A stretch of DNA of 64,000 nucleotides from Tubulanus polymorphus (taxonomy: Eukaryota; Nemertea; Palaeonemertea; Tubulaniformes; Tubulanidae), in NCBI RefSeq assembly GCF_964204645.1, contig NC_134028.1, positions 15,055,263 through 15,119,262 of the forward strand. Direction: 5' to 3'. Each line of letters begins with the position of its first letter. Positions within the stretch are counted from its first letter, which is position 1. Below the pieces are notes generated by a model. It was not told where the DNA came from, did not search any database, and saw only the letters and a program-made list of their open reading frames with translations. Below are positions 7,872 to 56,603 of this stretch, piece after piece. The translations under genes were made by a program, and so were the position numbers.

Positions 7872-7887
7872 TTTTTATAAGATATAA

Positions 7888-9345
7888 ATGGATGAAGAAG
7901 GTGGAGAAGATATTCCAATGGATACTTTCGATGAACCCGGTATAGCTGAAGAACAACAACCTGATTTTAATGAAACTAATTTTGATAATGATGATGAAAC
8001 AGCATATAATTCTAATTTAGCAGATAGTGGTTCTAATAATCCATCAACGGACGAGTTTGATAGAAGAACTAAATCGTGAATAAATCCTGAAAATGAAAAT
8101 CCAGATTTAGTAAAACAAAATTTAGAATATAATGAATATATTTAACATTTCAAACCTATATTTGAAAGATCTGGCTATAATATAAATGATAGAGGCACTA
8201 GACTTTTAGTAAAAGAATTAAAATTTTCTAATGATGAATATTATTATCATTTGAAAGATGATTATTATATTAATATCTCTTATGAAAATCAAAATGAAAT
8301 ATTAGCAGAATCAACTTTGAGTAATTTAGAACCATCTAGAAGTAAAAGAATAAGTAATAGTAATGAAATAGAAAATGTTACCGACGCAGAAATAAAAAGA
8401 AATAAAAGATTTCATCTAAGAATTGATCGTTTATTTGAAACAATCAATTATAATTTAGAAACAGAGACAATTTCTGAACAGGATATAACTTCCAAAAGTA
8501 GTAAAATTAAACCAAGAAAAGTTCAAACTGAAAAACTTTTACCGAATGGGTTACTTGATGCAACAGAACAAGAAGTAAAAGAATTAGATATATTTTCTGA
8601 TAAAACAATTAGAGAAATTATTAGTATAAGACTTGCATCAGATAAAATCGCGCACGATAAAAATATAAGAGATTTTAAAATTAAAACTTAAGACAAAGAA
8701 TCATCTAAAGCAGATGAAGAATTAGAACAATTAAAGTCTGATTTAGATCATCAAGTTATTGATGAAATTGAATATAGACAAAAGAATTAAGTTTAGAAAA
8801 AGAAATTGATGATTTAAAATATCATTTAGAATTACAGAAAGAAGAAAAAAATTATTAGTAATATCATATGATTATTGTATTAATAGATTAAAAATTATTT
8901 TTAAAGATTTGTTAATAAAACCAAATTCTAAAGTATCATTGAAAGATAGAATAAAATTATTATTTAAATTAGAAGGTATCACAATTCTTTCAATTCTCAC
9001 AGCTGTAACTATGATATTTACAACAATAGGTTAAGCTATATCAAATTCTTTAAAATCTACACCAAGTCCTAATAAACCGGATAAACCTCCAAGTCATAAT
9101 TCTATACAGGATAAAGTTAAAGATGGTTTAAAAAAATTAGCAAAATATTTATGGGAATTATCTAAAAACTCTGCTGCAGCTTTACCCGGTGTTATTGCAT
9201 CCATCAATTGTTAGTTTTGTTTTAAAATCTGCTGGAAATATTATTAACTTTGCTGCTGAACATATTTTTCTTTCTAATTACAGTTGTAAGTGCAATTGTT
9301 TTTGGATTAGTTAATATGATGAAAAATAAATTTTTTTTTTCTTAA
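7888..9345 (+). pseudogene. Acidic coiled-coil membrane protein (Polinton-2 copy)
   Basis: Homologous along its length to 49019-50356. The N-terminus is acidic (GGEDIP, DEPGI, QPDFNETN), followed by a charged helical middle and a hydrophobic C-terminus with AAALPGVIAS. Stops at about 8077, 8143 and 8690 and several shifts disable it. The stops arose from different codons, so the pattern is ordinary decay. It keeps a stretch around 9100-9165 (VKDGLKKLAKYLWELSK) that is largely deleted from Polinton-1. The ATG overlaps a TAAATG motif. Confidence 0.75.
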
Positions 9346-9349
9346 ATAA

Positions 9350-11954
9350 ATGAGTGGGAGTTATATAAATCCTTCTAAGAATTCTAAAATATCTAATGCA
9401 ATTAAAGCAGAGAGATGTCATTATAAAATTACTCATAATCATTCTAATATTAATCCTGATGAAACTTTATATGTTAGACATCCTCGATTAACACAAAATA
9501 CTTTTTATGTTCCAAATAGTATTTATTTATCAGCTGATATATAAGTAACTGGTAATAATAATAATTATGTCGTAGATAATGTTGCAAGTTATTTGATCAA
9601 AAAATTAATTATAAAGATTGGACCAGAAACAGTTTTTTTTCATTAGATGATTATATTTTAGTAACGCATTATAAAGATTTATGGTTAACAAAAGAAAATA
9701 GAGATAAAATGATATTTCAAGGCATCCAATCAGAAAAACCAAAATAAAATATAGCTGCAAGCAGCGTTAACGGGTTTCTGGCTTTCTGGATAGAATGTCG
9801 TTCAGGAATGCGATCAAAGATTTCACCCGACATCAGTTCGTTACATTCCGCTTTTTGAAAGAGTGCCACCTAGGGGTCAACTCATAACATGGATATGTTG
9901 ACCCACATGTGCTACTACGCGCACGTGCTACTACGCGCAAAGTACTAATATGCCTGGTTTTGGGGGAAATAACATCGAGAAGAACGAAGCTACGGTGTTT
10001 TTACCATTCCCTAGTGACAGTTTAAGCGCATATGCGGTTATTATTAGTTCCGAAAAAAGTCGACTAGATAAGAAAACCAAATTTGGCCCAAAGCACAAAT
10101 TTGGCCTATAGGGTAAACTATGCAGGAGGGAAGGCCTTATAGTGTTACTATTAGTAGAGGAGTGACAAGTCAAGCGATCAGATGGGGACTACAATTCACA
10201 TATGATATTGACGTCCAATAACCATTTTAAAACATAATCACGAACGGTACCATCACTCTCCATTACTGACTGTCACTGGTCTCTGGCTTGCAATCATTCT
10301 TTATCGGTGCAGTGGGTAGGTATTTTCAACTGACTTTGTTCTTCTATGACATTACCATCGCCGCTGCGTCACGATGTGATGTACATGTACAAGGGACCTC
10401 GAAATTTGTAATGTATGTGATGTATAAACTGACTTTAGACCGTTTAATATCGACGATAACAAGGTATCACCGACGCTGACATTTTCTGACGCTAAATAGT
10501 ATGACCCGCCTTTTTGACCGGACCAATTCAATTCAATTAAGAAAACGCGTACCGGTACCATAAATAAATAAACTGCTGTTGATTTTTCGAAGTATTGATA
10601 TCCACGAACAAAACTATACTATTATAGAATGTTTAAAAGGAACTGCTTTTAATAATAGTATGAATAAACTTACTTCACAAACAAGGAAGTACATTTTTAA
10701 CTTGTGAATGGTCGAACCCCAGTTATTCACAGTAACCTGTGATTTGGATATTCTCGGAGCCTTCCTTCTTTATTTATGTATGAAATGACGTCACAAACTT
10801 TCATATTATGCACTTTCACAGTATGCACGCCATGATTGATGATTGCTATTTCCACCGGTGTTATCTTTAAGTAACTTCAAGTTTAAAATAGGAAGCACAG
10901 TACGTCTATAGAAACTACGCGCAGAAAGAGACCGTTATATTATTATCAGAGTTTAACATTTCGTTTCAAAGTTGTTAGTAGTCAAATCTAATAGAAGATG
11001 ATTTTTATGTGACGAAACTCAGTGGAAAATATGTTAAAATAATAATCAGCAGGAATCCAATAGGGTTTCTGCCGAGGCAGCAGAAACCCTAATTAAGATC
11101 AGAAGCTAATAATGCAGTAGTTACTAATGACATAGATAATTTAATAAAAAGATTTATGGAAGCAAATATAAAATTCAATTAGACTTTGAATTGATAAATA
11201 ATAATGCGCCTTTATATAAATATGCAATTCAAGAAGATATTATATTTCGAGATGACATTTGCTCCTGTAAATGAAATTGTATTATCTAGCGTTTTTAAAG
11301 GTATGGATTATAAATTATCAAATATATGTTAAGAATATGACAGTAACTGAAGAAAATATTGCTAACACAATTCAAACTAAATACAATCAGGTATTTTCAT
11401 TATCATATGATTATATTGATAAATTTAAAACCTTAAATATTAATGCAAATGATGAAATAATTAATGAGAATATTAACTTCCCAAGAAGATCTATTAAAGG
11501 CGTATTAATATTTTTAACCATTGCAACATATTCTAATGGTGCAATAAAAGTTGATAATTATTATAATCCTGAAATGTCAAAAGCAGAAATAACTATCGAA
11601 GGCATAATAGCAAATATAGCAAATAAAATATTTTGTCAGGGAATGAGAATGATTGATCAATGGGTTGAAATTAAAAAACATTTTATGAATGAAAAAATAA
11701 AATCATCTGAACATTGTAATATTAATCAAATTGATTTCTATACCGGCAATAAATTTGCATTATGGTTAGATTTTAGAACGACAGAGGATAACTTATTACA
11801 TGGTTCTGGGAATAAATTACAAAATACTAAAGATGGAATACAATTATTCATGAAAAAGGAAAAAGGAGGTTTAAATTATAAAATACATATTTATATTATA
11901 TCTGACGCGCAATTAAACATTAGAAATTGTCAATTAGATAGTGTTATGTATTAA
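9350..11954 (+). pseudogene. Major capsid protein (Polinton-2 copy), split by Y1
   Basis: Codons from 9350 (MSGSYINPSKNSK) match the start of the Polinton-1 capsid gene at 50377. Its second half (11093-11954) matches 50780-51610. Y1 (9749-11092) sits between. There is a stop at about 9542 and indels such as a lengthened T-run near 9635. In the junction region this copy has a five-A run where Polinton-1 has six, which shows where the Polinton-1 frame broke. Its frame ends at 11954 at the likely ancestral stop; Polinton-1 reads through this point. Confidence 0.8.
9749..11092 (-). mobile_element. Y1: Helentron-like noncoding element in the capsid gene
   Basis: Comparison with the uninterrupted Polinton-1 site (AATAAATTAAGATC near 50770) defines the insert. 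Read on the minus strand it begins TTAGGGTTTCTG with an 11-bp-stem hairpin (CAGAAACCC). A purine/TTATTATT stretch follows, and it ends GGGTTTCTGG..CGCTGCTTGCAGCTATAT with a GCTGC..GCAGC stem-loop. Ends like these, insertion between T residues and absence of a target duplication fit Helentron/HINE elements. No coding capacity. Shares its ends and internal blocks with Y2 (15940-21163). Confidence 0.7.
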
Positions 11955-11991
11955 TAAAATCATCTTTAATAAAAATTTTTATATATTAAAT

Positions 11992-13202
11992 GGGTGAAGG
12001 TAAAGTATATAAACATATTCCATACAATGATAAACATGAAAATAATGATGGTCTATATTATATAATACCTTAAAATATAGCTTTGATATTTGATCCTATT
12101 TTTAAATATTATAAAACTAAACTAATAGAAATCGATAATAAAACAGCTAATAATTTAATTGAAATCGAAAATAATAAAAAGGGGGTTGTTGATAATTTAA
12201 GTAATCAAATTGAATCTAAAATAGAGGATAATATGAATCTAATAATAATGAAAATATAGATATTATACCTTCTACTTCGAATAATGATAATTATAATACA
12301 AAGATTGAACCTGGTATCAAAACCAAAAAGACAAATGAAAAATATTGTGACGTATGTTAAGAATATAAAAGTTATAAGAATTGGGCAACTCATATTAATT
12401 CAAGCATAATAAAGATAAGAATATAAACGAATTGAATAATAATAGTGAAATTGATAATGATAATACCGAAGAAGATAATAATAATGTTAAATATTGTGAA
12501 GAATGTGATAAATATGCAAGTCGTAGTAATTTTTCAAAACATAAATTAACTCAAATACATTTGGATAATAAAGAAAGAAATGTATGTGAAAAGTGTAATG
12601 TTGTTGTATTACCTAAAGATAAAATTAAACATGATAATTCTATTGAAGATACAATAAAAGCTATTGATTCAAAACGTCTTTATAGAGTACCGACTGTATT
12701 TTTTGATATCGAAAATAATAATCATAGGGAATTATATAGATTAATTTTTATCGATTATGTAAGAAATAATCCAAAAATATTATTATCAGATCTAAAAACT
12801 CGTTGGATAGATATAAATACATTTCCAGGTGATTATTCAGGTATACTTTATTTCACAAAATTTAAAAAGAGATTTTTAACAGAATTGGAAAAAGTTGCCG
12901 CTAATGATAATTATGATCATAAAAGTGATAACTTTGTTGAAATAATTCAATATTAGAGTTATGAAGATTTTTCACAAGATGTTATAAATGAAATTAAAAA
13001 TGATGCAAAAAATAAATCTAAAAATATAAGCGAAGATCAATTAAATAGATATATTGATTTAAATTATGAATTGTTTGCTAAGTTTGAGTGGTGTCAATAT
13101 GTATCACACCAAACAGTTAGGTGAAGTTGAAGGCAATAGAAAATCATTTGAATTAAGAAATGCATGGCTCAAATTGTGGTTAGAATTGGAATCAGAACAG
13201 TA
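11992..13202 (+). pseudogene. Zinc-finger protein (Polinton-2 copy)
   Basis: Counterpart of 51652-52786. The best-preserved segment (12432-12956) carries a C2H2-like finger, YCEECDKYASRSNFSKHK, then a CEKCNVV..KH remnant. The region after it (RVPTVFFDIENNNHRELYRL) does not resemble the shorter Polinton-1 C-terminus, so the two elements differ here or one has been rearranged. Several stops and shifts, including a TAA after the first 27 or so codons. The ATG at 11992 is preceded by TTAA, giving TTAAATG. DNA- or RNA-binding role inferred from the fingers only. Confidence 0.65.
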
Positions 13203-40453: not shown

Positions 40454-41035
40454 AGTAATAGGGAATATGTTGTTTCAGATCAAAGGTCGAACGGTCGAGT
40501 TCATTAAAAACAAAACATTAAAAGTAATTTAAAACTATAATATATTTTCATAACCGTGTACATTTTATATTAAAACTAAATATTTATTCTAAGATATCAA
40601 TAATTTAAAAAGCATATTGTCGCTCCACTTCGCTACCGCTCCGCTCCGCGACCAATTGATTTATTTACAATTCACACATTCATATAATCAAATATATTCA
40701 AATAATAATAATTATTCTATTATTCAACTGAAATACACACGGTTATGAAAATATATTATAGTTTAAAATTACTTTTAATATTTGTTATTAATGAACTCGA
40801 CCATTCAACCTTTAACCTGAAACAACATATTCCCTATTACTCTTAAAATATTCATATATATGAATAAAATGTAAATCATTGAACTTCTAAAATCAATTTT
40901 AATAAAAAATTTAGTATTAAAATGGAAGCAAATAAGTACTACTGCCCAACATGTAATATCAATATAGATAAATCCCAAAAAGCAAGACACAATAAAACTA
41001 AAACACATTTAGAGAATAAATTGAAACTAGAATAT
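40454..41035 (+). repeat. Polinton-1 left terminal inverted repeat (582 bp)
   Basis: Matches 56742-57337 in reverse. It includes the first 38 codons of the polymerase gene. Within it, the first 115 bases or so (AGTAATAGGG to ATAACCGTGT) recur inverted up to 40841, so the end itself folds back. A GC-rich stem GTCGC..GCGAC lies near the centre (about 40618-40652) in otherwise AT-rich DNA. Confidence 0.9.
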
Positions 41036-44000
41036 AAAGATGATATATTAGAAACTAAATTAGATGAATTAAAGAATGAAAAAGAAACATACAAATGTGA
41101 TACAGGTAATCAATCATTCAGTGATAAAAGATATTATAAAGAACATTTAAAATCTAAAAGTCATATTAGAAATATGAATAATGATATTTTAGGTGAAGAT
41201 TATTTTGATAATGACAATGATAAGAAACACAAGACAATTAAAAGAATAAGAAATATATTAAACAATAAAAGACCATACATGGAAGATGTAAGAAAATATA
41301 TTAATTTATTGGATAATAAAAAAGATATAGAAATAACCGAAGCATTTAAAAGTGATATTGGCCCAGCAGCTATCGAGTTTAAATTTCATAAAGGAAAAAC
41401 ATTAGAAGAAAATAAAAAACATTTAGAAAATATGAAAGAAATAATAAAAATAATAACTGATGTTGAATATCCTAAAATAAGTATATCTTCTAAAGTTAAA
41501 TTCATAAAATCTGAAGATAAACCAATATATAATATAAATTCTCATTCACAACATATTATTTCAAAACAACATATAGATGAAAAATTAGATAAATGTTATA
41601 ATGAAATAAAAACTAAAATAGAAGAGAAATATTTTGAAGGATCTGGTTTAATATTTGATGAAATAATATTTATGACTTTACATGTTTATAACACAAAATA
41701 TAATAAGTTAACTAAATCAAAACCAATTGATGAAAATAATGTATCATATTATAAAGAACCAGATATTGAAGCATCAAGTTATATTAAACTACCATTTAAA
41801 ACTAATGCTGTAATAAATGTACAAAATGAAGATGATAAATGTTTTCTATGGGCTATAATAAGTTGTTTACACCCAGTTGAAGATTATAAACAACATAGTT
41901 TTAGATTAACTCATTATAAACAATTTGAAAATAATTATAAGATAGATAAGTATCCTGTTATAATTAAAAACATCCCAAAAATAGAAAGAGATAATAATAT
42001 AAAGATAAATGTATTTGATTTAATCAAATTGCCAAATACAAAAGGTAACAGTATAAAACATTATACATTAGAACCTTTATACCTATCAAAAGATTATGAT
42101 TCAAATGATGTTATAGATATACTATATTATGAGAATCATTATATGTGGATTAAACAAATCGATTTATTTTTTAAATCAGAAAATGATCACCATAAAATAT
42201 ATCTTTGTAGAAAATGTTTACATAGATTCAGTAATGAAAGTACATTATTGAATCATAAACAATTATGTGAAAATCATGATTATTGTAAATTAGTTTTACC
42301 AAATGAAAAGGATAAAATATTAGAATTCAAAAAATATGATTACAAAAATAAAGTACCATTTGTTATATATGGAGATTTTGAATCATTAAATAAAGAATTA
42401 ACTGATCAAGATAGAAAAGAAATATATTATAAAAGAAAGAAATTAAATTCTAATGAAAATGATTATTCTGAAGAACCACCAAAAACAAATACTATTAAAA
42501 AGATTCATCAATCAGCTGCTGCTTTCGGGTTATATATAAAATCTGATTATCCAGAACTAATTAAAAGTGAAAATTATAATTATAGAAATGAAAATGTTAT
42601 CAATCATTTTTGTGACTTATTGATTGAATATGAAATGAGATTTAGTAAATTATTGAATACAAATATAGAAATTATAATGACAGAAGAAGATAAAGAAGAA
42701 TTTGCGTTTTCAGGTAAATGTTATTATTGTGAAAAGATATTTAATTATAAAGATAAAAAAATAAGAGACCATGATCATTTGAACGGAAAGTTAAGAGGCG
42801 CTGCACATGAGAATTGTAACTTACAAGCTAAGAAAATTAATTTTGTACCAGTTATATTTCATAATCTATCAGGATATGATGCACATTTATTCATCAAACA
42901 GTTATGCCATAAAATAGAAGAAATTAATAATGAAATAGAAAGATTAAATTCAAATAGATCAAAAGATAAAATACCAACTTATAAATTTAGAATGTTAGCT
43001 AAACATCTGAGAATTATATATCATTCCAATTTGGGTGTTTAAGATTTATAGATTCATATAGATTTTTAAATAGTTGATTAGATAACTTATCAAAATCATT
43101 TGTTGATGATGAATTAAAAATATTAAAACAACATTATCAAAATAATAATGATTTTCAATTAATGAGATATAAAGGCGCAATTCCATATTCATTTTATAAA
43201 TCACATAATGATTTCAATATAACTGAATTATTAAAAGAACAATTTTATGATGAATTAAAAAATGAATATGTTAAAGATGAAGTATATAATAGAACATTGA
43301 ATATTTGGAATCACTTCAAAATAGAAAATCATGGGCAATTAGTAGATTTATATTTAAAATCAGATGTATTATTATTAACCGATATATTCGAAAGGTTTAG
43401 AGATGTTAACCTAAAATATTTTAACATTGATCCTTGTCATTGTTATTCATCACCAGGTTTAACATGGGATTGTGGATTAAAATTTACAGATATAAAAATG
43501 GATTTGTTAACAAATATAGATCAATTATTATTATTTGAAAAATCCATAAGAGGAGGAGTTTCAGGTGTATTAGGTGATATTTCAATGTAAATGATAACCC
43601 TGGATATAAGTGATTATATATAGATGCAAATAATCTATATGGTTGGGCAATGATGGAACCACAACCTTATGGAGTATTTGAAATAAGTGAAGTTTTACAG
43701 AATGAAAATAATGATAAATTTGATTGGAAGAATTCTAGATATTGCAGATGATTCAGATACTGGTTACTTTTTTGTTGTAGATTTAGAATATCCTGAACAT
43801 ATTAAATTTAAATCTAGAAATCTAGCTTACTGTCCCGAACATAAAACTGTAACTCATGAAGAATTATCAAATTACCAAAAAAGAATTAAACCCGAAAATC
43901 ATATTCATACAGAAAAGTTAATGGTAACTCAAGAAGATAAGTATAATTATGTAGTACATTATAGAATGTTAAAGTTTTATCTAAAACAAGGAGTGATCCT

Positions 44001-44950
44001 AAAAAAAGTACATTGATATATTTCATTTAGTCAATCTAAGTGGTTAGAAAAATATATAGATTTTAACACAAAACAGAGAACTGAAGCTAAAACTGATTTC
44101 GAGAAAGATTTCTTCAAGTTAATGAATAATGCATTCTATGGTAAGACTTAGAAATATTAGAAATAGAAATGATATTGAGTTAGTTAGTAATGGCAAAAGG
44201 ATAAGGCATTTACAATCATATCGTAAGTTTTTAGGTAACAGAATATTTGATGAAAATTTAGCTGTAGTTAAGATGAGGAGAACATCAATGAAATTTAATA
44301 AACCAATCTATGTTGGCGCTTCAGTTTTAGAATTATCAAAATTACTAATGTATGAATTCTATTATAATGTATTACAACCACTTTTTGGAGAAAAACATAT
44401 AGAAATATTATATTTTGATACTGACAGTTACATATTAAAGATAAAAACTGATAACATAACTGATGATTTAAAAACATTAAAACATCATTTTGATTTCAGT
44501 AATTATCCTAAAAATCATGAATTGTTTAGCAATGATAATAAAAAAGTTCCTTGTAAATTCAAAGATGAATTAGGCGGTGAAGTAATGATTGAATTAATTG
44601 GTATTAGATCTAAAATGTATTCATATAAAACTAAAGAACATGAAGCTAAAAAGTTAAAAGGAATAACTAAAAGTGTAGTAGAAAAGAATATTCATTTCAA
44701 AGATTACATCAATTGTATATTCAATGAAGAAGTTAGAAAACATAAGATGAGATGTTTAAGATCTGAAGATCATGAAATGTTTATTGAAGAAATTGAAAAG
44801 ATAAGTCTAAACCCATTTGATGATAAAAGATATATTTTAGATGATGGAATTCATACAGTTGCTTATGGTTGCAATTTAGATGAATATTTAAAATTTAAAA
44901 GAGAAGAAACAAAAGAGAACGAGATAATGAAAAGAATTCTAACGTGTTAA
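40922..44950 (+). pseudogene. Protein-primed DNA polymerase B (Polinton), frame broken
   Basis: Replicates the element from protein-primed ends. In order: N-terminal C2H2-like fingers (YYCPTCN..H..H and a second, poorer one); a Cys/His segment C-x2-C..RDHDHLNGKLRG; exonuclease motifs GDFES, NLSGYDAHLF and YLKSDVLLLTDIF; polymerase motif A DANNLYGWAM, motif B near KLMNNAFYG, and motif C FDTDSYI. The frame is open for 706 codons, then shifts at about 43035, 43590, 43700 and 44140 and has TGA stops near 43074, 43609 and 44014. All core motifs remain, so decay (or sequencing error) is recent. The start ATG has TTAAA before it, without the TAAATG motif of the later genes. Confidence 0.9.
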
Positions 44951-44969
44951 TCAAATTTTAATAAAAATA

Positions 44970-45324
44970 TGGAGAGTATTAAAATGGAGAGTAAACAAGC
45001 ACACAGTGAATTCTTAAATAGAGAAAAAGATACTTCAAATGTAAATCTGTAGATTATAAATTTAAGAAGTTAACAGAATTAACAATCCATAAGAAATATC
45101 TAATTACAAATATTGATACAGTTACTAACAAATATGGAGATAAATTAGTTATACACTTAGAATATGAAGGATTAAAAGGAAATACACATAAATTCAGAAC
45201 ATATTTACCGGATAGATTTCATAGATTATCAAGTGAAGATTTAGAAGAATTATGTTCTGGAGATTTCTATTTCGTATACAAAGGTAAGAATGAAAAAGGG
45301 TACCATGAAATAGATTTCGAATGA
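44970..45324 (+). pseudogene. Small Polinton protein after polymerase, function unknown
   Basis: About 110 codons beginning MESIKMESKQAHSEF. A shift at about 45020 is needed to reach the well-composed C-terminal part (FKKLTELTIHKKYLITNID to KGYHEIDFE, stop at 45322). Lys/Glu-rich and predicted beta-strand rich. It lies between polymerase and penton. I do not recognise a domain. Confidence 0.5.
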
Positions 45325-45341
45325 GAAAATATGTAAAATAA

Positions 45342-46101
45342 ATGGTGGAATTAAAAGAATACAGAATATTTGTTGATTCAAGAAAACTTACAAATTATAA
45401 ATCTCATAATTTACTAGTACAATTAGATAGAGAATTTAAGAATTGTGTTGATGTAAAATTAGTTAATATAAGTTTATGTAATTCTTTTCATAATATATCG
45501 AATAAAAGTCTTGATTTTGAAAGCTTTTAAAACTTATGATAGAAATTTGAATAAATGGTTTCATCTTTATCTAAAACCAGGATTATATAATTTAGAAACA
45601 TTAGCGCAAGAAATCAATAAAAGAGCTCGTTTAAAAATGGGCTCAGCAGCTGCTCGATTTGAAATTAAATTTATCAAAAATGATAGTTCGAATAAAATAA
45701 GAATAAAGTTAACTAATGAACAACATAGATTTCTAGTAAGAAAACCTTTAGCTAAACTGTTTGGAATTCTTCCGGATAGACATTATTCAAATATTGATAC
45801 TTATACAAATATAATACCTTTTACACACTTTTATATTTATTGCAATTTAATCGAGCCTACAAAAACTTTCGAAGCAACTAAAGATACAATTTGTAATTCT
45901 AGTATATTAAATATTTTACCGCTGAAAAATGTTAAACAATTTGGAACGCAAATAAATTATAATTTAGCTGAATGTGATTTCAAACCATGCATTCCTAAAT
46001 TCAATAATTTTAAATTAGAAATAAGAAATCATAATGGATATTTAATTGATTTGAATAACTTTCCTGTAATTTATGAATTAGTTATAAGATGTAAAGAGTA
46101 A
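45342..46101 (+). pseudogene. Penton-like minor capsid protein (single jelly roll)
   Basis: Two overlapping frames, 45342-45530 and 45511-46101, form one gene of about 250 codons, the usual length for Polinton penton proteins. Features: a short N-terminal strand region, WFHLYLKPGLYNLETLAQEIN, LAKLFGILPDRHY, FTHFYIYCNLIEP, and a C-terminal FKLEIRNHNGYLIDLNNFPVIYEL, matching the pattern of these proteins. Pentons form the vertices of the predicted icosahedral capsid. One shift near 45525 breaks the frame. TAAATG overlaps the start. Confidence 0.75.
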
Positions 46102-46120
46102 TTTTTTCACCATATAAATG
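46102..46120 (+). promoter_or_regulatory. T-run plus TAAATG at a gene start
   Basis: T6 at 46102-46107, seven-base spacer, TAAATG at 46115-46120 with the ATG as its last three bases. Same layout as six other gene starts downstream. Poxvirus late promoters have this form; function here is inferred. Confidence 0.55.
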
Positions 46121-46474
46121 AATATAACTGTTGGACCGAGTATATGTTTTGGATTTGATTTTAAACGTGAGAAAGAAATGAAATTTAACATTACTGATGT
46201 AATTACACATATCAAAAATATTGCATTTTCTAATGAAACAACACTTGAGTATGAAACAACAATAGATAAAGAAACTTTAAATGTAGAAAAGATTACTAAT
46301 TTAATTAGAGAATCTTTAAGATTTTATGAATTAGATGAAGATTTTATCATCGATGATATTAAAAAAATAATAATTGAAATATATACAAATGAAACCAGTA
46401 ATGAAATAAATGTTGAATTAATCATAAATAAGTTAACTAAATATTTTGATGATAGTAATTTTTTTGATAAATAA
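46118..46474 (+). CDS. Polinton protein of unknown function, 118 residues
   Basis: Intact frame starting MNITVGPSICFGFDF, then an acidic, Ile/Glu/Asn-rich helical region to FDDSNFFDK. No membrane segment or known motif. Lies 16 bases after the penton stop and directly before the next gene, so it belongs to the late-type block. Not recognised. Confidence 0.65.
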   Translation: MNITVGPSICFGFDFKREKEMKFNITDVITHIKNIAFSNETTLEYETTIDKETLNVEKITNLIRESLRFYELDEDFIIDDIKKIIIEIYTNETSNEINVELIINKLTKYFDDSNFFDK

Positions 46475-46477
46475 ATG
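46459..46477 (+). promoter_or_regulatory. T-run plus TAAATG at a gene start
   Basis: T7 at 46459-46465, six-base spacer, TAAATG at 46472-46477 overlapping the ATG at 46475. Confidence 0.55.
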
Positions 46478-46695
46478 AGTGATAATAAGTGGATAATAAC
46501 TGGATTATATAATGGAGCATTACTATCAGTTTGAACTGTTGGTTATTCAATGGTATTAAAAAATTATTCAAAATGGGAAGTGTTAATGTTGATAGATTTG
46601 ATATAAATGATATTTTAAAATTAACGTTACCAGTTACTTTATCTAATTTAACTATTGATTATTTAGAAAAACAAAAATATATTCCTCCCATATAA
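46475..46695 (+). pseudogene. Small Polinton membrane protein, frame broken
   Basis: Starts MSDNKWIITGLYNGALLSV, then an in-frame TGA. A shift is needed to reach the C-terminal KLTLPVTLSNLTIDYLEKQKYIPP. A hydrophobic N-terminus followed by this kind of ending resembles a small conserved Polinton protein. About 70 codons in all. Role unknown; possibly virion membrane or assembly. Confidence 0.5.
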
Positions 46696-46706
46696 ATGCG
46701 TAATTA

Positions 46707-46722
46707 TTTTACTAAATAAATG
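46707..46722 (+). promoter_or_regulatory. T-run plus TAAATG at a gene start
   Basis: T4 at 46707-46710, six-base spacer, TAAATG at 46717-46722. The weakest T-run of the set. Confidence 0.45.
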
Positions 46723-47142
46723 GCTTCTGCAATTATAACTATTATAGGATCGGCAATTGTTAACGCTTTAGCATTTACTGGTGGCGGTTATTTATTTAAG
46801 CATATTGATAAAAATAGTTCATTAGGAGAACAAAGAAGACATAACTTAGCATTAGAGAAATACAATAAAGCTGCAGAAGAATATAGAGAAAAGAGACAAA
46901 ACTATATGGATTATATTAACAAAGAATTATATGATCAGAAGATTTCACATAGAGATTTTCAATCAGTTGATGATGCAATGAGTTTATATAACGCAGTATC
47001 AAATAAAGAAAAATTACATCTATACAAACCTAAATTATCAGATTATTATACCCCAAGTAATGAACAACAGAAATATGAAATAATATGGATTTTAGGCGGA
47101 ACAGTTATTGTTATATTTGTTGCTTATAAGTTTACTAATTAG
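46720..47142 (+). CDS. Polinton membrane/coiled-coil protein, 140 residues
   Basis: Intact. N-terminal hydrophobic segment (IITIIGSAIVNALAFTGGGYLF), a central charged helix (NLALEKYNKAAEEYREKRQNYMDYINKEL), and a C-terminal transmembrane segment (IIWILGGTVIVIFVAYKF). This architecture recurs in Polintons and is taken as a structural or assembly protein; the exact role is not known. Preceded and followed closely by genes of the same strand. Confidence 0.7.
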   Translation: MASAIITIIGSAIVNALAFTGGGYLFKHIDKNSSLGEQRRHNLALEKYNKAAEEYREKRQNYMDYINKELYDQKISHRDFQSVDDAMSLYNAVSNKEKLHLYKPKLSDYYTPSNEQQKYEIIWILGGTVIVIFVAYKFTN

Positions 47143-47145
47143 TAA

Positions 47146-47164
47146 TTTTTTTTCTAAATAAATG
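47146..47164 (+). promoter_or_regulatory. T-run plus TAAATG at a gene start
   Basis: T8 at 47146-47153, five-base spacer, TAAATG at 47159-47164. Confidence 0.55.
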
Positions 47165-47596
47165 GAAGATAAAAATGATAATATTGATATTATTCCTCAT
47201 GATATAAATAAAACTAAATTAAAAATATATTTAGAAAAACAAATATTAGAATTTGAAAGTGTCTTAAAGATAAAAAAGAAAAAATATTTAAAAAGTAAAA
47301 TTATATATTATCTTATTATTAGTGGTTCGGTTACAATTAGTTCTGTAATAACATTTCTAGCAATATTCAGTCCATTAACACCTTTAGCTATATCAATTGG
47401 TGTGTTAGGATTATCATCAAGTGTATTAACTGGTATAAGTTCAAAATTAAACATAAAAAGTAATAAAGAAAAAATTAAAACTAATATAAAAGAAATTAAT
47501 AAATTGAAGAATACACTAGATTATATAATTAGTTTAAATGGCCATATAACAGTTGAAGAACAAGATAAATTATTAAAAGAATTAATAAATTATTAA
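47162..47596 (+). CDS. Polinton membrane protein with two hydrophobic segments, 144 residues
   Basis: Intact frame. Charged N-terminal helix, then two adjacent hydrophobic stretches (IIYYLIISGSVTISSVITFL and PLTPLAISIGVLGLSSSVL), then a Lys-rich coiled coil. Topology is probably a hairpin in the membrane with both ends on the same side. No recognised family. Confidence 0.65.
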   Translation: MEDKNDNIDIIPHDINKTKLKIYLEKQILEFESVLKIKKKKYLKSKIIYYLIISGSVTISSVITFLAIFSPLTPLAISIGVLGLSSSVLTGISSKLNIKSNKEKIKTNIKEINKLKNTLDYIISLNGHITVEEQDKLLKELINY

Positions 47597-47614
47597 TTTT
47601 TTATTATATAAATG
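47597..47614 (+). promoter_or_regulatory. T-run plus TAAATG at a gene start
   Basis: T6 at 47597-47602, six-base spacer, TAAATG at 47609-47614. Confidence 0.55.
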
Positions 47615-49002
47615 GTAGATAGTTTTCCAAAAGCTTTCCAATATAATAAATCAATTAAATATAATATTCCTGCAAGAGATTTTAATAAAGATATTACATA
47701 TAGAAATGAAGTTTTTAGATTCATTAACTAATTTAGAAATTTATGTAACTGAAACTAATAATTTTAATGCAAAGATGGAAAATATATTTCATGTATATTT
47801 AATTAATTTTAAAAAATTGAAAGATGAAAAACAATGGTTATTAAAATCTAATATGAAGTATTGGCAGAACCAATTAAATTTTGCTGTTTATTGTGCAACA
47901 ACAGGTTGTGGAATTAGTTGGAATGATCATTTGAATAATTCTAAATATAAATTAATTCAAAGTTTATTTAGATTTCATACATACTTTCAAATAAGAATAA
48001 TATTAAATGAATTAGAGTGCGTTTTACCAGGATCTAGGTATTTTAAAGAATTAGACAATTATATTAATTTATCAATGTTTTATAAAATTTGTAATGAATT
48101 TAATATAGATATAAATAATTCTGATTTTAGAACAAAAATTGGAACAATAAGATCACTTCCTTGCCCTAAAAAGATTGCAGAATACTGTGCACTTCCCATA
48201 CCATCTAATAGCTTTTATAATATCTATAATAATAAATTAGGTTATGGTAAAATAGAAACTAAGGATTTAGAAACATTAAATTTCAATAAATTACCGAAAT
48301 TTTATGATAATTTAAAACAAGAAAACAATAACGGTTGGGTTTATTTCATTTTAGAAAATAATGAAGGTTTTACAAAATCAGGTATACAAATAATAAATCA
48401 ATCTATTAGAACTTATTTGATATGTATTTTAGGTGCGCAAGTTGAAACAAGATCACCGATAATTTGGAAATTTAAATACATCATTTTATACACAGAAACA
48501 ATTTAAAGTTTTATTTGAAGATTCCATTCATAATGATAAAAATAGATCGATTCCAGAAAACATTATAAGATATCAAAATTATTTAGATAAATCTCATGTA
48601 AGACTTAATTATTGTATAGGCCCCAATCTATTAATTATTTCTAATGATTTAGTATTGAAGATGGGAAACATAATTGGTTATAATAATCTAATTAAAACTG
48701 CAACAATAAATAATTCATTTGGATCAAATGATATAAATAAAAAGATTATTACTGCTCCAAAATTAATGGAAGGTGAAAAAAATAAAAAACATATTCAATC
48801 AACAGAAACTAAAACTAATAATATTAAATTAAATAATGATACTAAAATAAAAGATTACAATACATCAGAAGATATAAAAACTGATAATATTCAACATGAA
48901 ATAATTAAACTAAATGATGATAATAAATCCCATGAAAATACTAAATTAGCTATAACTTGTATAGGAATTGTTATAGGAGGAATATTATATTTTAAATTTT
49001 AA
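47612..49002 (+). pseudogene. Conserved Polinton protein of unknown function, frame broken
   Basis: Starts MVDSFPKAFQYNKS. The frame shifts at about 47700 into the long frame 47706-48506 and again at about 48480 into the frame ending at 49002. The middle has FAVYCATTGCGISWNDHL and NNEGFTKSGIQIINQSIRTY followed by LGAQVETRS, blocks that recur in Polinton proteins of unknown role. The last part is Asn/Lys-rich and ends in a transmembrane segment (CIGIVIGGILYFKF). Total about 460 codons. Possibly a virion component. The tail is also preserved in Polinton-2. Confidence 0.6.
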
Positions 49003-49021
49003 TTTTTTTATTATGTAAATG
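49003..49021 (+). promoter_or_regulatory. T-run plus TAAATG at a gene start
   Basis: T7 at 49003-49009, six-base spacer, TAAATG at 49016-49021. Confidence 0.55.
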
Positions 49022-50356
49022 GCAGAAGGTGGAGAAGATATTCCATTGAATCCTTTTGGTGATGAACCCGGTATAAGTAATGAACCACAACCTGATTTTA
49101 ATGAAACTAATATTGATAATGATGATGAATCAGCATATAATTCTAATTTAGCAAATAGTGGTTCTAAAGCCCCATCAACAGAAGAAAATGATAGAAGAAT
49201 TAGATCGAGAATACCTACTGAAAATTTAGACCCAGGTTTAGAAAGAGAAAATTTAGAAAATTATGAATTTATGTATGAATTTCAACAGGTATTTGAAGAA
49301 TCTGGATATAATATCAATGATAGAGGTGCCAGACTTTTAGTAAAAGAATTAAAGTTTTTAGATGGTGAATATTATTATCATTTGAAAGATGATTATTATA
49401 TTGATATCTCTTATAAAAAACAAGAAAAAATATTAGCAGAATCAACTTTGCTTAAGTCCGACTCATTACTATCTAGAATTAAAATAATAAGAAATAGTAA
49501 TGAAATAGAAGATGTAACACAAGAAGAAATTATCAAAAATGAAAGAGTATTTAAACAAAGAATTAATAAATTATTTGAAACAATCGATAATAATTTAGAA
49601 CCAGAAACTAGTAGACCTAATTCAAGAGAAGTTCAAACTGAAAAAATTTTACCGAAGGGATTACTTGATGCAACAGATCAAGAATTAGAAGATTTAAATA
49701 TATTTTCTGATAAAGCAATTAGAGAGATTATTAGTATAAGACTTGCATCTGATAAAATTATGCATGATAAAAATATAAGAGATTTAAAAATTAGAACTTT
49801 AGAAAAAGAATTAACTGATAAAAATAAAGAAATAGACCAATTAAAAGAAAATCATCTTTTAAAATCATCTTTTAAAAGAAAAAGATGATTTAGAATATAA
49901 CATAGAATTACAAAAAAAAGAAATTAAATTATTATTAAAATCATATGATTATAATATTGATAGATTAAAAGATGTTTTTAAAAGATATCTAATAAAACCA
50001 GATTCTAGAATATCATTGAAAGATAGAATAAAATTATTATTTAAGTTTGAAGGAATAACAATTCTTTCAATTCTAACAGCTGTAACTATGTTATTTACAA
50101 CAATTGGTTTAGCAATATCAAATGCTTTGAAATCTACTCCTACTCCCAATAAACCGGATAAACCCCCGAATATTTATGGGAACTATCTAAAAAATCTGCT
50201 GCAGCTTTACCCGGAGTTATTGCGTCAATAGTTGGTTTTATATTGAAATCTGCTGGGAATATTCTTAACTTTGCTGCTGAACATATTATTTTATTTTTAA
50301 TTACAGTTGTAAGTGCTATTATTTTTGGGTTAGTAAACATGATTAAAAATAAATAA
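49019..50356 (+). pseudogene. Acidic coiled-coil membrane protein (Polinton), frame broken
   Basis: The frame is open from 49019 to 49888 (289 codons): an acidic N-terminus, a globular part with GYNINDRGARLLVKELKFL, then a long coiled coil. A shift at about 49880 leads to a Lys-rich helix, a hydrophobic segment (GITILSILTAVTMLFTTIGL) and, after a deletion of about 55 bases relative to Polinton-2 near 50175, a C-terminus with AAALPGVIASIVGF and a final membrane segment. This ending is a recurring Polinton feature. It lies directly before the major capsid gene, suggesting an assembly role. Confidence 0.65.
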
Positions 50357-50360
50357 TTAA

Positions 50361-50379
50361 TTTTTTTGTTAAATAAATG
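50361..50379 (+). promoter_or_regulatory. T-run plus TAAATG at the capsid gene start
   Basis: T7 at 50361-50367, six-base spacer, TAAATG at 50374-50379. The Polinton-2 capsid gene has the same arrangement (T10, six-base spacer, ATG at 9350), so it is retained between diverged copies. Confidence 0.6.
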
Positions 50380-51694
50380 AGTGGGAGTTATATAAGTCCT
50401 TCTAAGATTTCTAGAATATCTAATGCTATTAAAGCAGAAAGATCACATCATATAATTACTCATAATCCTTCTAATATTAATCCCGATGAAACTTTATATG
50501 TTCGAATTCCTCGATTAACACAAAATACTTTTTATGTTCCAAATAGTATTTATTTATCAGCTGATATAAAAGTAACTGGTCATGATAGTAATTATGTTGT
50601 AGATAATGTTGGAAGATATTTGATTAAAAAATTAACTATAAAGATTGGTCCAGAAACAGTTTTCTCATTAGATGATTATAATTTATTTATGCATTATAAA
50701 GATTTATGGTTAACTAAAGAAAATAGAAATAATATGATATTTCAAGGCATCCAATCAGAAAACCATAATAAATTAAGATCAGGAGCTAATGACGCAATAG
50801 TAACGCGCACCGCAGATAATTTGATAAAAAAGATTTATGGAAGCAAATATAAAATTTCCATTAGACTTTGAATTGATAAATAACAATGCACCTTTATATA
50901 AATACGCAATTCAAGAAGACGTTATATTCGAGATAACATTTGCTCCTGTAAATGAAATTGTATTATCTAGCGTTGTTAAAGATATGAGTTATAAATTATC
51001 GAATATATGTTTAGAATATGATACAGTAACTGATGAAAATATTGCTAACACAACTCAATACAATCAAGGATTTTCATTATTATATGATTATATTGATAAA
51101 TTTAAAACCGTAACTATTAATGCAAATGATGAAATAATTAATGAGAATAATAACTTCCCAAGAAGATCTATTAAAGGTATATTAATATTTTTTACCATTG
51201 CAACATATTCTAATGGTGCAATACAGGTTGATAAGTATTATAATCCTGAAATAACAAAAGTAGAAATACCTATCGAAGGAATAGCAAATAAAATATTTTG
51301 TCAAGGAATGAGAATGATTGATCAATGGCCAGAAATTAGAAAACATTTTATGAATGAAAAAGTGAAATCATCTGAAAATTGTAGTATTAATCAAATTGAT
51401 TATTATACCGGCCATAAATATGCATTATGGTTAGATTTTAGAACAACAGAGGATAATTCATTACATGGTTCTGGAAAAAAATTACAAAACACTAAAGATG
51501 GAATACAATTATTCATGACAAAGAAAAAAGGAAGCCTGGATTTTAAAATGCACATTTATATTATATCTGACGCGCAATCAAATATTGTAAATTCTCAATT
51601 AGATAGTGTTATGTATCAAAATTTTAACTTTAATGAAAATATATTATATAAATGGAAGGTGGAATATATGAAATACAAACTCCAAGTGAAATGA
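50377..51694 (+). pseudogene. Major capsid protein (double jelly roll), one frameshift
   Basis: Frames 50377-50871 and 50837-51694 make one gene of about 435 codons. The first jelly roll has VRIPRLTQNTFYVPNSIYL, GRYLIKKLTIKIG and LFMHYKDLWLT. The second begins IKFPLDFELINNNAPLYKYA, with VIFEITFAPVNEIV, a typical Polinton hexon pattern. The break is a six-A run at about 50825 where Polinton-2 has five. At the 3' end the stop present in Polinton-2 is replaced by CAA, adding about 27 residues that overlap the next gene's start. The protein would form the capsid shell. Confidence 0.8.
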
Positions 51695-52786
51695 TAACAG
51701 ATATATATTATATATTACCTTATGATGAATACATTAAGTATTTTGGAGATTACTTTAATCAATTCAAATATAGAATAAGTAAAATAAAAGATAATATTGT
51801 AATTAAAATAGAAGATAAGAATGATATTGAATATAAAATAGAAGATGATATTGAAACTAAAATAGAAGATAGTAATAATATTGAAACTAAAATAGAAGAT
51901 GTAACAGCATCTGCATCTTATAATATACCCTCTACATATGATATTGAATCAAAAAAAGATTATTATAATCCAAAATATTGTGATGTATGTTATAAATATA
52001 TATCATATAAAAATTGGGCATCACATAAGAAATCAAAGAAACATATAGAAAAAGAAAAGAATAATAATGATAATAATATATCAGTTAGTAATATAAAAGA
52101 TAATGTTAACCCAATTGAAACTAATGATACCATAGATAATATAACAGAAAATGTAATAAATAATGTTAACCCAATTGAAACTAATGATAATGATATAACA
52201 GATAATGAAATAATTGATGATTCTAAAAAACATTGTTACATTTGTAATTTAGATATCTCTAAAAGTAATTTTTCTAAACATAAAAAATCTAAGGGGCACA
52301 TAGAAAATGAAAAAGAATTAATATGTGATTATTGTAATAAAGAAATTGAACCTATTGATAAAATTACTCATTATAAATCAAAATTACATCTAATTAATGT
52401 TTATAAAAAAGTGGGTATGTTACCATTGTTAGATGAACCAAAGAAATATATCAAATATTTTAATCCTGAAACTAAAAATATCATATATTCTTTAAGTTAT
52501 TATTTGATAAATTATTAGCTTATGCAGAAGATAATCCTGACCAAATATATAAATTAGCGTATAATGGATACCTAGATTTATTTAATTTAATCAATGATAT
52601 TGAATTTGATTTTGATGGTGATAATTCTAATGATTACTTTGAAAAATTAAGAATAAAAGCTGGATTAAGTGATGATGAACGTAGAATGAAGGATGAAATA
52701 GAATTAATAAATATGCCAAAGACTTCTGATGAATTTGATATAAACAAAGATGATTTTATAAATGTATTAGAAACAAAATTAGAATA
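51652..52786 (+). pseudogene. Polinton zinc-finger protein
   Basis: Open for 288 codons (51652-52518), then a shift into a frame ending at 52786. The N-terminal region is acidic with EDxIETKIED repeats. Three Cys/His fingers follow: CDVCYKYISYKNWASHKKSKKH, CYICNLDISKSNFSKHKKSKGH and CDYCNKEIEPIDKITHYKSKLH. The C-terminus is acidic. The fingers resemble those at the start of the polymerase. Likely nucleic-acid binding; possibly a virion core or regulatory protein. Starts inside the capsid gene's extended end, with TAAATG at the ATG. Confidence 0.65.
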
Positions 52787-52830
52787 ATTATTATAAAACT
52801 ATTTATATATCTATAAAAATATTTATATAT

Positions 52831-53092: not shown

Positions 53093-53130
53093 TATAAATT
53101 AGTTTCTATAATATTCCAAATTATAAATAG

Positions 53131-53742
53131 TTATTGTATAAATTTATATTTATATGGAAATTGTAGTCTCAGTAATGATTTTGAACCTTTATTATTCTTT
53201 CATTTATTCATATATTCATCATGTAATTCAGTAGGTATAATTTGATTTTCCTCCAATGATTGTTGCATAGATTTTCTATCTTTGTTATAAAATAAAACTA
53301 GAAATCTTATATTCGCCCTAAAGTCTCTAACAAATGAATTATATTTTTGATTTAAAACCCATGTTGTTATCCCAAAATGTCTCCCAGAAAAAGCTAAATA
53401 ACATAACTCACTTTCCCTAACTTTTGAATCATGTAAATTTGCACAATCATTTATAATGAATAATGTATTTGATCCTTTGTAAGTATCAATTGCTATTTTT
53501 ATACAACTATCTAAATTTTCTTTTACTATTTCAGGATCTAATATAATAAACTTTTTCATCTTAACTATATCTCTATTATATGTTTTATTCATTTCATAAG
53601 TAGGGCAGAATAATATTATATTATCAAAATGATTCTTATAAATAGTTTCTAACAAATCTAATATGAAATGTGTTTTACCACAATTGGTTACTCCAGTTAT
53701 TAACATATTATGCGGTTCAAATATAAATAAATCTTTATTCAT
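53131..53742 (-). pseudogene. FtsK/A32-type packaging ATPase, premature stop near the end
   Basis: Walker A GVTNCGKTHF lies near residue 17-26, Walker B TLFIINDC near residue 95, and the sensor-like SGRHFGITTWVLNQ near residue 120, as in Polinton and A32-like genome-packaging ATPases. It would pump DNA into capsids. Open from 53742 to a TGA at 53200 (180 codons). Polinton-2 shows that about 25 more codons once followed, ending near 53131. All catalytic motifs are before the stop, so it may still fold. The start overlaps TAAATG and the integrase end. Confidence 0.85.
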
Positions 53743-54745
53743 TTATTCTTTTAATTTTACTAGATAAAATCCATTCATTAAATTTATCATCATATCCTTT
53801 ATATTTCACCAAAGAATACTTTTTTCCTTTAAGAGTTTTTGTTTTCAATACGTTTTCTATTTTGTATTCTATTTCATCTGGATTTGGTACAAGTGATAAT
53901 TCTTGTTCATAGAAACAACCTAATATTTCTTCATCTTTTAGATCTTCTAATTTATAAACAAAAGGTTTAGTTAATATCATCTTTTTAATCTTGAATATTT
54001 CTTCAGTAAAATTAGGGGTATAACCTTTATAAAAGGTTTTTCTATATTTAGATATTCTTACGTGTTGTCCAATTTTGAATCTAGGTTCACCGAAATCATG
54101 TGTAACAAATGCTCCATATAAATCATTCCATACTATTTCTGAATTATCTTCTTTTCTAGCTTGTATAGGTTTCATATTTATAGAACTATGTTTAGAATTA
54201 TTATAACCTTTCACTAAATCATCTAACATATTTATAGACTCACCGATATATTTATATGTTTCATTAGCAGTAAAATATTTCCACATTCTAGTTTTCAATG
54301 TTTTATTAAATCTTTCTATATTAGATGCTTTTTTATCTGAATGTGTTGAAAAATAATCTACATCGTTATCAGATGATAGTTTTTTAAAATCTTTGTTATA
54401 AAATTCCTTACCTTCATCAAATTGTATCTTATCTGGAATAGCTTCTTTAAATATTGATTTAAAAGCATTTGTCACTTCTATACCAGTTTTATTTTTGATT
54501 GGAATTGACCATGCGTATCTACTGAATATATCTATAACATTCAGTATCCAGAAATATCCTTTGTTGTATTCCTCTAAGTTCTTCATGTCAATTAAATCTG
54601 CTTGCCATTGTTGATCGATATATGAAACCATAACTTTTCTTGTTAAATAAGTTTTATCCATTTTCTTGTTTATTTGATATGTTGGTTGATTTTGTAACCA
54701 CGACTGTAATTCACTATATTTTGTCATTGGAATCATCTTTATCAT
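53735..54745 (-). CDS. Polinton integrase (rve) with chromodomain
   Basis: Intact 336 codons. Catalytic residues are the Asp in QWQADLIDMKN, the Asp in KIQFDEGKEFYN and the Glu in KASNIERFNKTLK, spaced as in retroviral-type integrases. After an SH3-like region (FKIGQHVRISKY) a chromodomain ends the protein (YKIENVLKTK..KYKGYDDKFNEWI). It would join element ends to 6-bp staggered targets, consistent with the GTAGTG duplication. The N-terminal H2C2 zinc domain of longer integrases is missing, so the true start may lie upstream in broken sequence. It overlaps the ATPase start by 8 bases. Confidence 0.9.
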   Translation of the reverse strand: MIKMIPMTKYSELQSWLQNQPTYQINKKMDKTYLTRKVMVSYIDQQWQADLIDMKNLEEYNKGYFWILNVIDIFSRYAWSIPIKNKTGIEVTNAFKSIFKEAIPDKIQFDEGKEFYNKDFKKLSSDNDVDYFSTHSDKKASNIERFNKTLKTRMWKYFTANETYKYIGESINMLDDLVKGYNNSKHSSINMKPIQARKEDNSEIVWNDLYGAFVTHDFGEPRFKIGQHVRISKYRKTFYKGYTPNFTEEIFKIKKMILTKPFVYKLEDLKDEEILGCFYEQELSLVPNPDEIEYKIENVLKTKTLKGKKYSLVKYKGYDDKFNEWILSSKIKRINE

Positions 54746-55013: not shown

Positions 55014-55608
55014 TTATTTTAGTTAATTTTTGTTCTGATTCATTTTCTGTTTCGACGTTTGGTTGTAGTACATCTGTTTCGTTCTTACCTGATTTATATT
55101 CCATAGATTTGATGTTCGAAAACGTTATGACGCCAGTAGAAATTAATGTCATAACCGATCCTAATTGAAATGAAGCATAACCAACCCATTTTTGTAATTC
55201 AGTCATAACTAAGTAGTCATTTTTCAAATCACTATATAATTTATTTTCATCATCAATTGGTATTAACTGGTTACATAACTTAGAATAACATTTGACAATA
55301 CCATCTGAAATAGAATCATTTATTCTAGCTAATCTTGCCTCTTCATAAATCTTAAAATATTTTTTTACTTAATCGGGTTTCATAGCATCTAATTCTTGAA
55401 AAGTAATAATTCTATTTAAAAACTCTTTAGTTTTTCCACCGGCAATCAATAGTTCTAGATGATGCTTACAATATAACTAGTATTCATAATCTATATTACA
55501 ATTAACTTGAGCACAATTAGTTACAACTGTATCTTAATTATCACTTATACCCAAATCATCTTATGTTTTTTCAATATCAATACTATTCTTATTAGATTTC
55601 GTTGACAT
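55006..55608 (-). pseudogene. Polinton protein of ~200 codons with four in-frame stops
   Basis: Reads in a single frame from ATG 55608 (preceded by TATATAA) to TGA at 55006. It includes a Cys-containing N-terminal half (TNCAQVNCN, LYCKHHLELL), a helical middle and a hydrophobic segment (YASFQLGSVMTLISTGVITF). The first half contains TAA or TAG at four codons but no shift; the last 73 codons are open. Each stop is one C-to-T change from a Gln codon, though other origins are possible. Not recognised. Confidence 0.5.
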
Positions 55609-55855
55609 TTATATAGGATAAAAATAACAAGAAAATATAATAAGTATTCTTCAAATGATACTAGTATCTCTTTAGATTAATACTAGCTTAGTTAAAGGTA
55701 AAGAATATTAGTATTAGTTATTGTTTTTTTAGTATTTTTTATTTGTGATATAAAGTATTCTTTTTTGAAAAGAAAATATTAAAAATATAATAGAATTCAC
55801 TAGCTAGTTGAAGTTATAGTTTTTTAAATATTTTTTATTTAAAATCTATTATTCT
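55609..55855. other. Noncoding gap in Polinton-1
   Basis: Very AT-rich, with repeated AGTATT/AAGTATTCTT and TAGTATTAGTTATT motifs and T-runs. No ORF or clear structure beyond the upstream region of the gene starting at 55608. Confidence 0.5.
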
Positions 55856-56524: not shown

Positions 56525-56603
56525 TTATTATACGTATTTTTTTTACTAAATTGGTTAATATTTTAGAATCCTCTTCCATTTCTTCGACCAACGTCATCCT
56601 TTT

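Follow-up and report, generated by a model that had tools for sequence, protein, structure and literature searches.

Which signal drives the genes of a Polinton is the question raised by a 64-kb stretch of contig NC_134028.1 of the nemertean Tubulanus polymorphus, here called the window, within which positions are counted. The window carries Polinton-1 (about 40453–57337, roughly 17 kb), for which terminal inverted repeats were found, and a second element, Polinton-2. Pfam and repeat searches identified PolB, an rve integrase, an A32-like ATPase, a capsid gene and terminal inverted repeats, as expected of a Polinton/Maverick; the major capsid protein of Polinton-1 matched its profile only below threshold (Capsid_N, 18.6 bits versus a 24-bit cut-off). 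A first-pass annotation of this DNA had suggested a dedicated late promoter, resembling that of poxviruses, at consecutive gene starts of Polinton-1. Judging from sequence, we favour with fair confidence a core promoter that is specific to Polintons, has a poxvirus-late design and is probably read with a VLTF3-like factor.

Direct reading confirmed that seven ATGs (46118, 46475, 46720, 47162, 47612, 49019 and 50377) all lie within TAAATG, and that they follow T-runs of 6, 7, 4, 8, 6, 7 and 7 at spacers of 7, 6, 6, 5, 6, 6 and 6 bases, respectively:

46102..46120, plus strand: T6 (46102–46107), spacer 7, TAAATG; late-type layout of the gene at 46118–46474.
46459..46477, plus strand: T7, spacer 6, TAAATG; within the last part of the preceding reading frame.
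46707..46722, plus strand: T4, spacer 6, TAAATG; interrupted T-run; gene at 46720–47142.
47146..47164, plus strand: T8, spacer 5, TAAATG; gene at 47162–47596.
47597..47614, plus strand: T6, spacer 6, TAAATG; gene at 47612.
49003..49021, plus strand: T7, spacer 6, TAAATG; gene at 49019–49888.
50361..50379, plus strand: T7, spacer 6, TAAATG; start of the major capsid gene.

These starts were compared with those of sister elements, which are other Polinton copies of the same host genome and comprise A-type (window-like) and B-type elements; stretches of each type were read. The gene at 46475, a frame of 19 amino acid residues in Polinton-1, has 73 residues in stretch L037, and the gene at 47612, which is broken in Polinton-1, has 462 in L032. 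Some copies of the signal at 46707..46722 carry TAATTTTTTT as the T-run. At the capsid start, the ATG was preceded by TAA in all 39 copies read. Moreover, the capsid gene of Polinton-2 repeats the full layout, as had been noted before, and two further layouts were found in that element:

9331..9352, plus strand: T10, spacer 6, TAAATG; Polinton-2 capsid gene, ATG at 9350.
11976..11992, plus strand: T5, spacer 6, TAAATG; ATG at 11990, whose Polinton-1 counterpart (51652) has no T-run.
7872..7890, plus strand: T5, spacer 8, TAAATG; ATG at 7888.

An insertion of ~1.3 kb (9746–11090), unrelated in sequence and lower in AT content, splits the Polinton-2 capsid gene and is probably another mobile element.

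AT-rich composition had been raised as a possible source of TAAATG. In Polinton-1, TAA preceded 8 of the 17 first ATGs of open reading frames (ORFs) of at least 100 residues versus 39 of 664 other ATGs (p = 4e-6). The layout T≥6, N5–7, TAAAT(A)ATG occurred six times versus a mean of 0.25 and a maximum of 2 in 300 dinucleotide shuffles of Polinton-1. Its T≥5 and T≥4 variants occurred six times (mean 0.74, maximum 4 per shuffle) and eight times (mean 1.78, maximum 6), respectively, and neither was found in the remaining 39.7 kb of the window. When Polinton-1 and the B-type stretches were pooled (ORFs of at least 60 residues), a run of T≥5 at N5–7 accompanied 13 of 22 TAAATs at ORF starts versus 11 of 509 elsewhere (p = 3e-14), and at least three of the 11 off-start matches were starts of broken genes. 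The promoter survey covered a single host genome of 268 Mb, in which TAAT7-N6-TAAATG was found 3093 times (1640 + 1453) versus 3 (2 + 1) when the pattern was reversed; for the looser T5-N6-TAAATG the counts were 6954 versus 1662. Composition alone was rejected because the layout lies far above both the shuffles and the reversed pattern.

The spacing was rigid. With the TAAT7 pattern, spacer 4 gave 13 matches genome-wide versus 4 reversed, and spacer 8 gave 92 versus 1. Since 86 of these 92 were longer T-runs with a true spacer of 5–7, and six were truly 8, the T-run drifts in length while the gap is held. Among the matches listed, TAAT7-N6-TAAATG was clustered, and several clusters lay in stretches read as Polintons. 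On contig C1, the earliest of the matches listed in position order was at 12.55 Mb, with none in the first 12.5 Mb. Together with the ratio of 3093 to 3, this argues that the host hardly uses the combination of T-run and TAAAT.

The sister elements sharpened the motif to TAA-T7-N6-TAAAT(G/A). Starts were sorted into 18 gene types by N-terminal anchor, with up to three substitutions allowed and M required; L001 and L002 were left out as duplicates of other stretches, and the orthologous A- and B-type PolB were tallied separately. By our tally, the layout was present in at least some copies of 11 gene types, on both strands and including divergent genes:

With the layout: B-type PolB, the VLTF3-like gene (mostly T5), B-type penton, MNITV, MSDNK, MASAI (T7 in three of eight copies), MEDK, MVDSF, MAEGG, the major capsid protein and MVGEKK.
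With an interrupted T-run: MGDRK.
Without a T-run: A-type PolB, a 126-aa gene, zinc finger 2, integrase, ATPase and MSEVK.

Ten of the 14 penton starts read T-run, N6, TAAAT, A, ATG (TAAATAATG), with T7 in nine and T4 in one. Because the ATG of these ten lies one base later, TAAAT keeps its distance from the T-run rather than from the ATG. Similar to the late promoters of poxviruses (vaccinia-type), which possess T residues in a core of ~20 bp, a gap of 5–7 bp and TAAAT(G/A) (PMC5294985, PMC7117657), the Polinton layout has a T-rich core 5–7 bp from TAAAT and a TAAAT(G/A) initiator at the translation start, and a capsid gene is among its users.

The first-pass annotation had also listed genes headed by TAAATG alone and had held that the polymerase gene lacks the layout. 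The corresponding starts in Polinton-1 are:

45342: TAAATG; ORF of 62 residues, an N-terminal piece of the protein labelled penton in that annotation (two pieces of this protein had no Pfam match).
51649..51654, plus strand: TAAATG, no T-run; zinc-finger gene 51652–52518.
53740..53745, minus strand: TAAATG, no T-run; packaging ATPase (Pox_A32, 42 bits).
56524, minus strand: TAAATG; gene labelled HNH.
55606..55624, minus strand: T5, spacer 8, TAAATG; broken small gene with a 15-residue frame at 55608.
55013, minus strand: TAAATG; broken small gene with a 5-residue frame.
40922..43042, plus strand: N-terminal part of PolB; start with neither TAAATG nor a T-run.

TAAATG was thus recovered at the penton, zinc-finger and ATPase starts. 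It also heads the supposed HNH gene, whose identity was not borne out (no Pfam match at E 0.01). The two small minus-strand genes mentioned earlier are probably those at 55608 and 55013, both broken in Polinton-1. The claim about the polymerase holds for PolB of Polinton-1 and fails for B-type PolB, in which both starts read have the layout.

Several observations weigh against a late promoter of the poxvirus kind. In all 20 copies of the integrase and all 4 of the ATPase, TAAATG stands without a T-run, A-type penton (4 of the 14 penton starts) lacks the layout, and the two B-type PolB starts have it (T7 at L033:3151 on the minus strand; an interrupted run ending in T5 at L043:199 on the plus strand). 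The vaccinia Group I string, taken as tabulated in PMC11423596, fits some genes only: it was found at 33 of 40 capsid starts, 2 of 2 of MVGEKK, 3 of 5 of MVDSF, 11 of 18 of MAEGG (both labels), 1 of 7 of MSDNK and 0 of 9 of MNITV, at none of the remaining labels, and in 5 of the 87 TAAATGs of the pool. Polinton copies share descent, so 3093 and the related counts are not independent and the independent unit is the gene type. Finally, no match to the multisubunit RNA polymerase that poxviruses possess turned up among the ORFs searched with Pfam, though it might be supplied in trans. Because B-type PolB has the layout and the integrase and ATPase have TAAATG without a T-run, the late class proposed earlier is weakened, whereas the sequence gives good support for a promoter of poxvirus-late layout that is dedicated to these elements. 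By analogy, the word late may suit a signal whose full layout is used by the capsid and putative structural genes and not by A-type PolB, although B-type PolB does use it.

At integrase and ATPase starts (L004:2735 and L031:2625, both plus strand), an A-rich GTTAAAATTAA- or AGTAAAATTAA-like block lies ahead of TAAATG. This block is reminiscent of the poxvirus intermediate promoter and might mark a second, intermediate-like class, which we mention as a lead only.

The candidate factor is encoded in B-type elements by the gene divergent from penton, whose product has fingers of the C2H2 kind and one zf-U1 finger, as well as a putative zinc ribbon and a C-terminal domain. In the host genome, PF04947 (Pox_VLTF3) had at least 63 matches (150 of 228 candidates scored), at 26.1–30 bits and all above the 25-bit cut-off, and none in 14 control genomes; all 20 PF04947 loci fetched hold the VLTF3-like gene. 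In hmmscan, 4 of 10 open frames from the first ATG were above the cut-off (27.4–28.0 bits, E down to 2e-6), and none of ten residue shuffles matched Pox_VLTF3, the best chance match to any family being 17.4 bits. The putative zinc ribbon reads C221-x2-C224 ... C238-x2-C241-G in the alignment, and other zinc-ribbon families match only weakly. Pox_VLTF3 has a zinc ribbon ahead of a helical domain.

Other results count against this assignment. The match spans only positions ~83–165 of the 168 in the profile, its C-terminal half. Hmmscan did not report the six longest frames (432–441 residues), placed a piece from L042 below threshold (23.2 bits), reported one of nine sequences in another set (L056, 28.4 bits) and not the other eight, and reported none in further sets, namely a lone VLTF3-like piece among ten proteins and a set of four. 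The dN/dS among ten intact copies, selected for intact frames, was 0.56, suggesting mild constraint only. In addition, tblastn gave no match to the gene in the window, and no such gene was found in Polinton-1. A Pox_VLTF3 search of viral records yielded a sub-threshold match in the control Bacillus subtilis, so weak E-values are insufficient alone; Pox_VLTF3 was absent from the ten large viral records searched, which precluded a profile-profile check. Among solved structures, the VLTF3-like profile had no convincing relative (best E 0.053, an unrelated receptor). A search for VLTF2 found nothing in the host genome and nothing in the controls either, and is hence uninformative.

VLTF3 has been called undetectable outside Nucleocytoviricota (PMC11253617) and is used as a marker of that group (PMC11253617, PMC12638062); in their available parts, papers dealing with both VLTF3 and Polinton-like viruses assign VLTF3 to giant viruses (PMC12945077, PMC12638062, PMC11633385). 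Since a 2021 survey with trees of VLTF3, ATPase and resolvase ascribed a few scattered eukaryotic homologues to virus-to-host transfer (PMC8715426), capture of the VLTF3-like gene from a large DNA virus is plausible. Among the papers listed from the open-access literature searched, outside which most subscription papers fall, we noted none describing a promoter with TAAAT, or a VLTF3 gene, for the Polinton of an animal. The VLTF3-like protein in sister elements, not found in Polinton-1, is a new observation.

We propose that TAA-T(6–8)-N(5–7)-TAAAT(G/A) would be the core promoter of most genes in this Polinton lineage. Its parts would be a coding-strand T-run, a fixed gap of ~6 bases and a TAAAT initiator located at the start codon or a single base ahead of it, and transcription would most likely start in TAAAT, giving almost leaderless mRNAs. 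The probable specificity factor is the VLTF3-like zinc-finger protein of the B-type sisters, which would serve A-type elements, Polinton-1 among them, in trans. No RNA polymerase family was found among the ORFs given to Pfam, with ~1 kb and the left end of a B-type copy unread. As the element showed no gene for such an enzyme, the polymerase would most likely be host RNA polymerase II (Pol II) redirected by the VLTF3-like factor, for which mriyaviruses, possessing VLTF3 without an RNA polymerase, provide a precedent. The polymerase of a co-infecting large DNA virus is less likely.

If the latter were used, the elements would be virophage-like, and both the RNA polymerase and the late factors reading TAAAT would come from a co-infecting large DNA virus, for example an insect poxvirus. 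We consider this rather unlikely. It is true that Mavirus-type (type 4) endogenous mavirus-like elements (EMALEs) and the giant virus CroV have one late motif in common (PMC8547959), that TAAATG was predicted as the late signal of a structural gene in an entomopoxvirus from a parasitic wasp (PMC3061580), and that the lack of a polymerase family in the tested ORFs fits as well. However, the B-type elements bring a VLTF3-like gene of their own, for which an element dependent on a helper would have no use. Nor did a helper virus come to light: a pattern scan of IMG/VR returned at least 120 stretches, of which the 80 listed had one match each, with no contig outstanding.

Less probable still are ordinary host Pol II core promoters, or nucleosome-free T-tracts with an AT-rich start context, which would require no special factor. 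T-tracts exclude nucleosomes, and where a genome is AT-rich, start codons often stand in an A-rich context. Against this stand the genome-wide ratio, the lack of a listed match before 12.55 Mb of C1, and a gap to TAAAT that is rigid while the T-run varies in length.

It is highly improbable that the T-runs act at the 3' ends of upstream genes, as terminators or in polyadenylation, with TAAATG as a translation context. In the tandem cluster several T-runs do lie close behind a stop codon, and the poxvirus early termination signal is TTTTTnT (PMC3061580). In L032, however, the VLTF3-like gene (minus strand, ATG 1209) and penton (plus strand, ATG 1278) diverge from 68 bp in which two complete signals, one with T5 and one with T7, stand back to back with no co-directional upstream stop, the T-run at 46459 sits within the upstream coding frame, seven gene ends not leading to a layout start show no run of T≥6 in 56–62 bases each (one has T5), and TAAAT keeps its position when the penton ATG shifts by one base. 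In L031, the MVGEKK signal lies ~385 nt beyond the ATPase stop, after short repeats; these belong to an intergenic array of CTAGTTGAATTCTAGTT-like repeats (L031:3234–3620) between the ATPase and the next gene. A splice acceptor was also discarded, as none of the seven signals has an AG between its T-run and the ATG.

Different from the poxvirus late promoter, the Polinton signal has a pure T6–8 run after TAA, serves an element of roughly 17 kb in which no RNA polymerase was found, is also used by B-type PolB and has a start site predicted from sequence. Similar to Mavirus and EMALEs, integrating Polinton-related viruses in which many genes have a promoter of viral type (PMC8547959), the Polintons repeat one signal from gene to gene; the late motif of the former, however, is TCTA (shared with CroV), their host is a protist and their helper is known, whereas this Polinton lineage has its own VLTF3-like gene. 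Mriyaviruses also have a VLTF3 gene without polymerase subunits, and nuclear replication was inferred for them (PMC11253617), but they are described as Nucleocytoviricota of 35–45 kb with VLTF2/VLTF3 and no DNA polymerase, whereas Polintons possess integrase, PolB and capsid. The yeast cytoplasmic linear plasmids (pGKL) are linear DNA as well; they use TAAAN as initiator and have poly(A) leaders at the 5' end (PMC6211774). Unlike Polintons, they encode their own two-subunit RNA polymerase, and the available part of that source describes no T7-N6 element for them.

The host genome had at least 151 capsid matches (150 of 1317 candidates scored), a very heavy Polinton load. The terminal inverted repeat of Polinton-1 (40882–41035 / 56742–56895) takes in the PolB start, and for this reason a second copy of the PolB N-terminal zinc-finger ORF lies at the right end (56604–56855, minus strand). 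One B-type copy has TAAT7-N6-TAAATG at both ends (C1:12621601, plus strand, and 12638648, minus strand). In the sister copy L042, PF03175 was matched at 74.8 bits, and the B-type PolB (L042:558–3323 and 3292–3894, both plus strand) contains an intein-like insert that splits YFD|TDxY, with PF14890 below cut-off (18.1 bits) and a weak LAGLIDADG_3 match; PolB of Polinton-1 lacks the insert and reads YFDTDSY. Invasion of Polinton PolB by homing endonucleases or inteins has been published (PMC11071308). Judged by eye from translations, the flanks of Polinton-1 (57817–63202 and 38348–39800) carry BEL/Pao-like retrotransposon ORFs and transposase-like ORFs, and Pfam matched DUF1759 at 6191–7324. BEL/Pao-type elements are metazoan, which fits an animal host. 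Exact-word patterns for capsid, PolB, integrase and the VLTF3-like protein, which reach close relatives only, found no relatives in IMG/VR; one distant PolB piece was found in a contig of a metagenome-assembled genome, in which the layout is absent.

A more far-reaching possibility, put forward tentatively, is that animal Polintons have a complete giant-virus-type late switch, consisting of their own VLTF3 and cognate TAAT7-N6-TAAAT promoters. Such a switch would redirect a nuclear polymerase to produce leaderless, possibly poly(A)-headed capsid mRNAs, would be shared or exchanged with Nucleocytoviricota and not private to them, and would let VLTF3-less elements parasitise their VLTF3-bearing sisters. 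The finding bears on how Polintons express their capsid genes and on why their particles are hardly seen. With a defined promoter and a candidate factor, Polinton capsid expression becomes directly testable, and a VLTF3 carried by a Polinton would matter both for how giant-virus transcription arose and for how far VLTF3 can serve as a marker.

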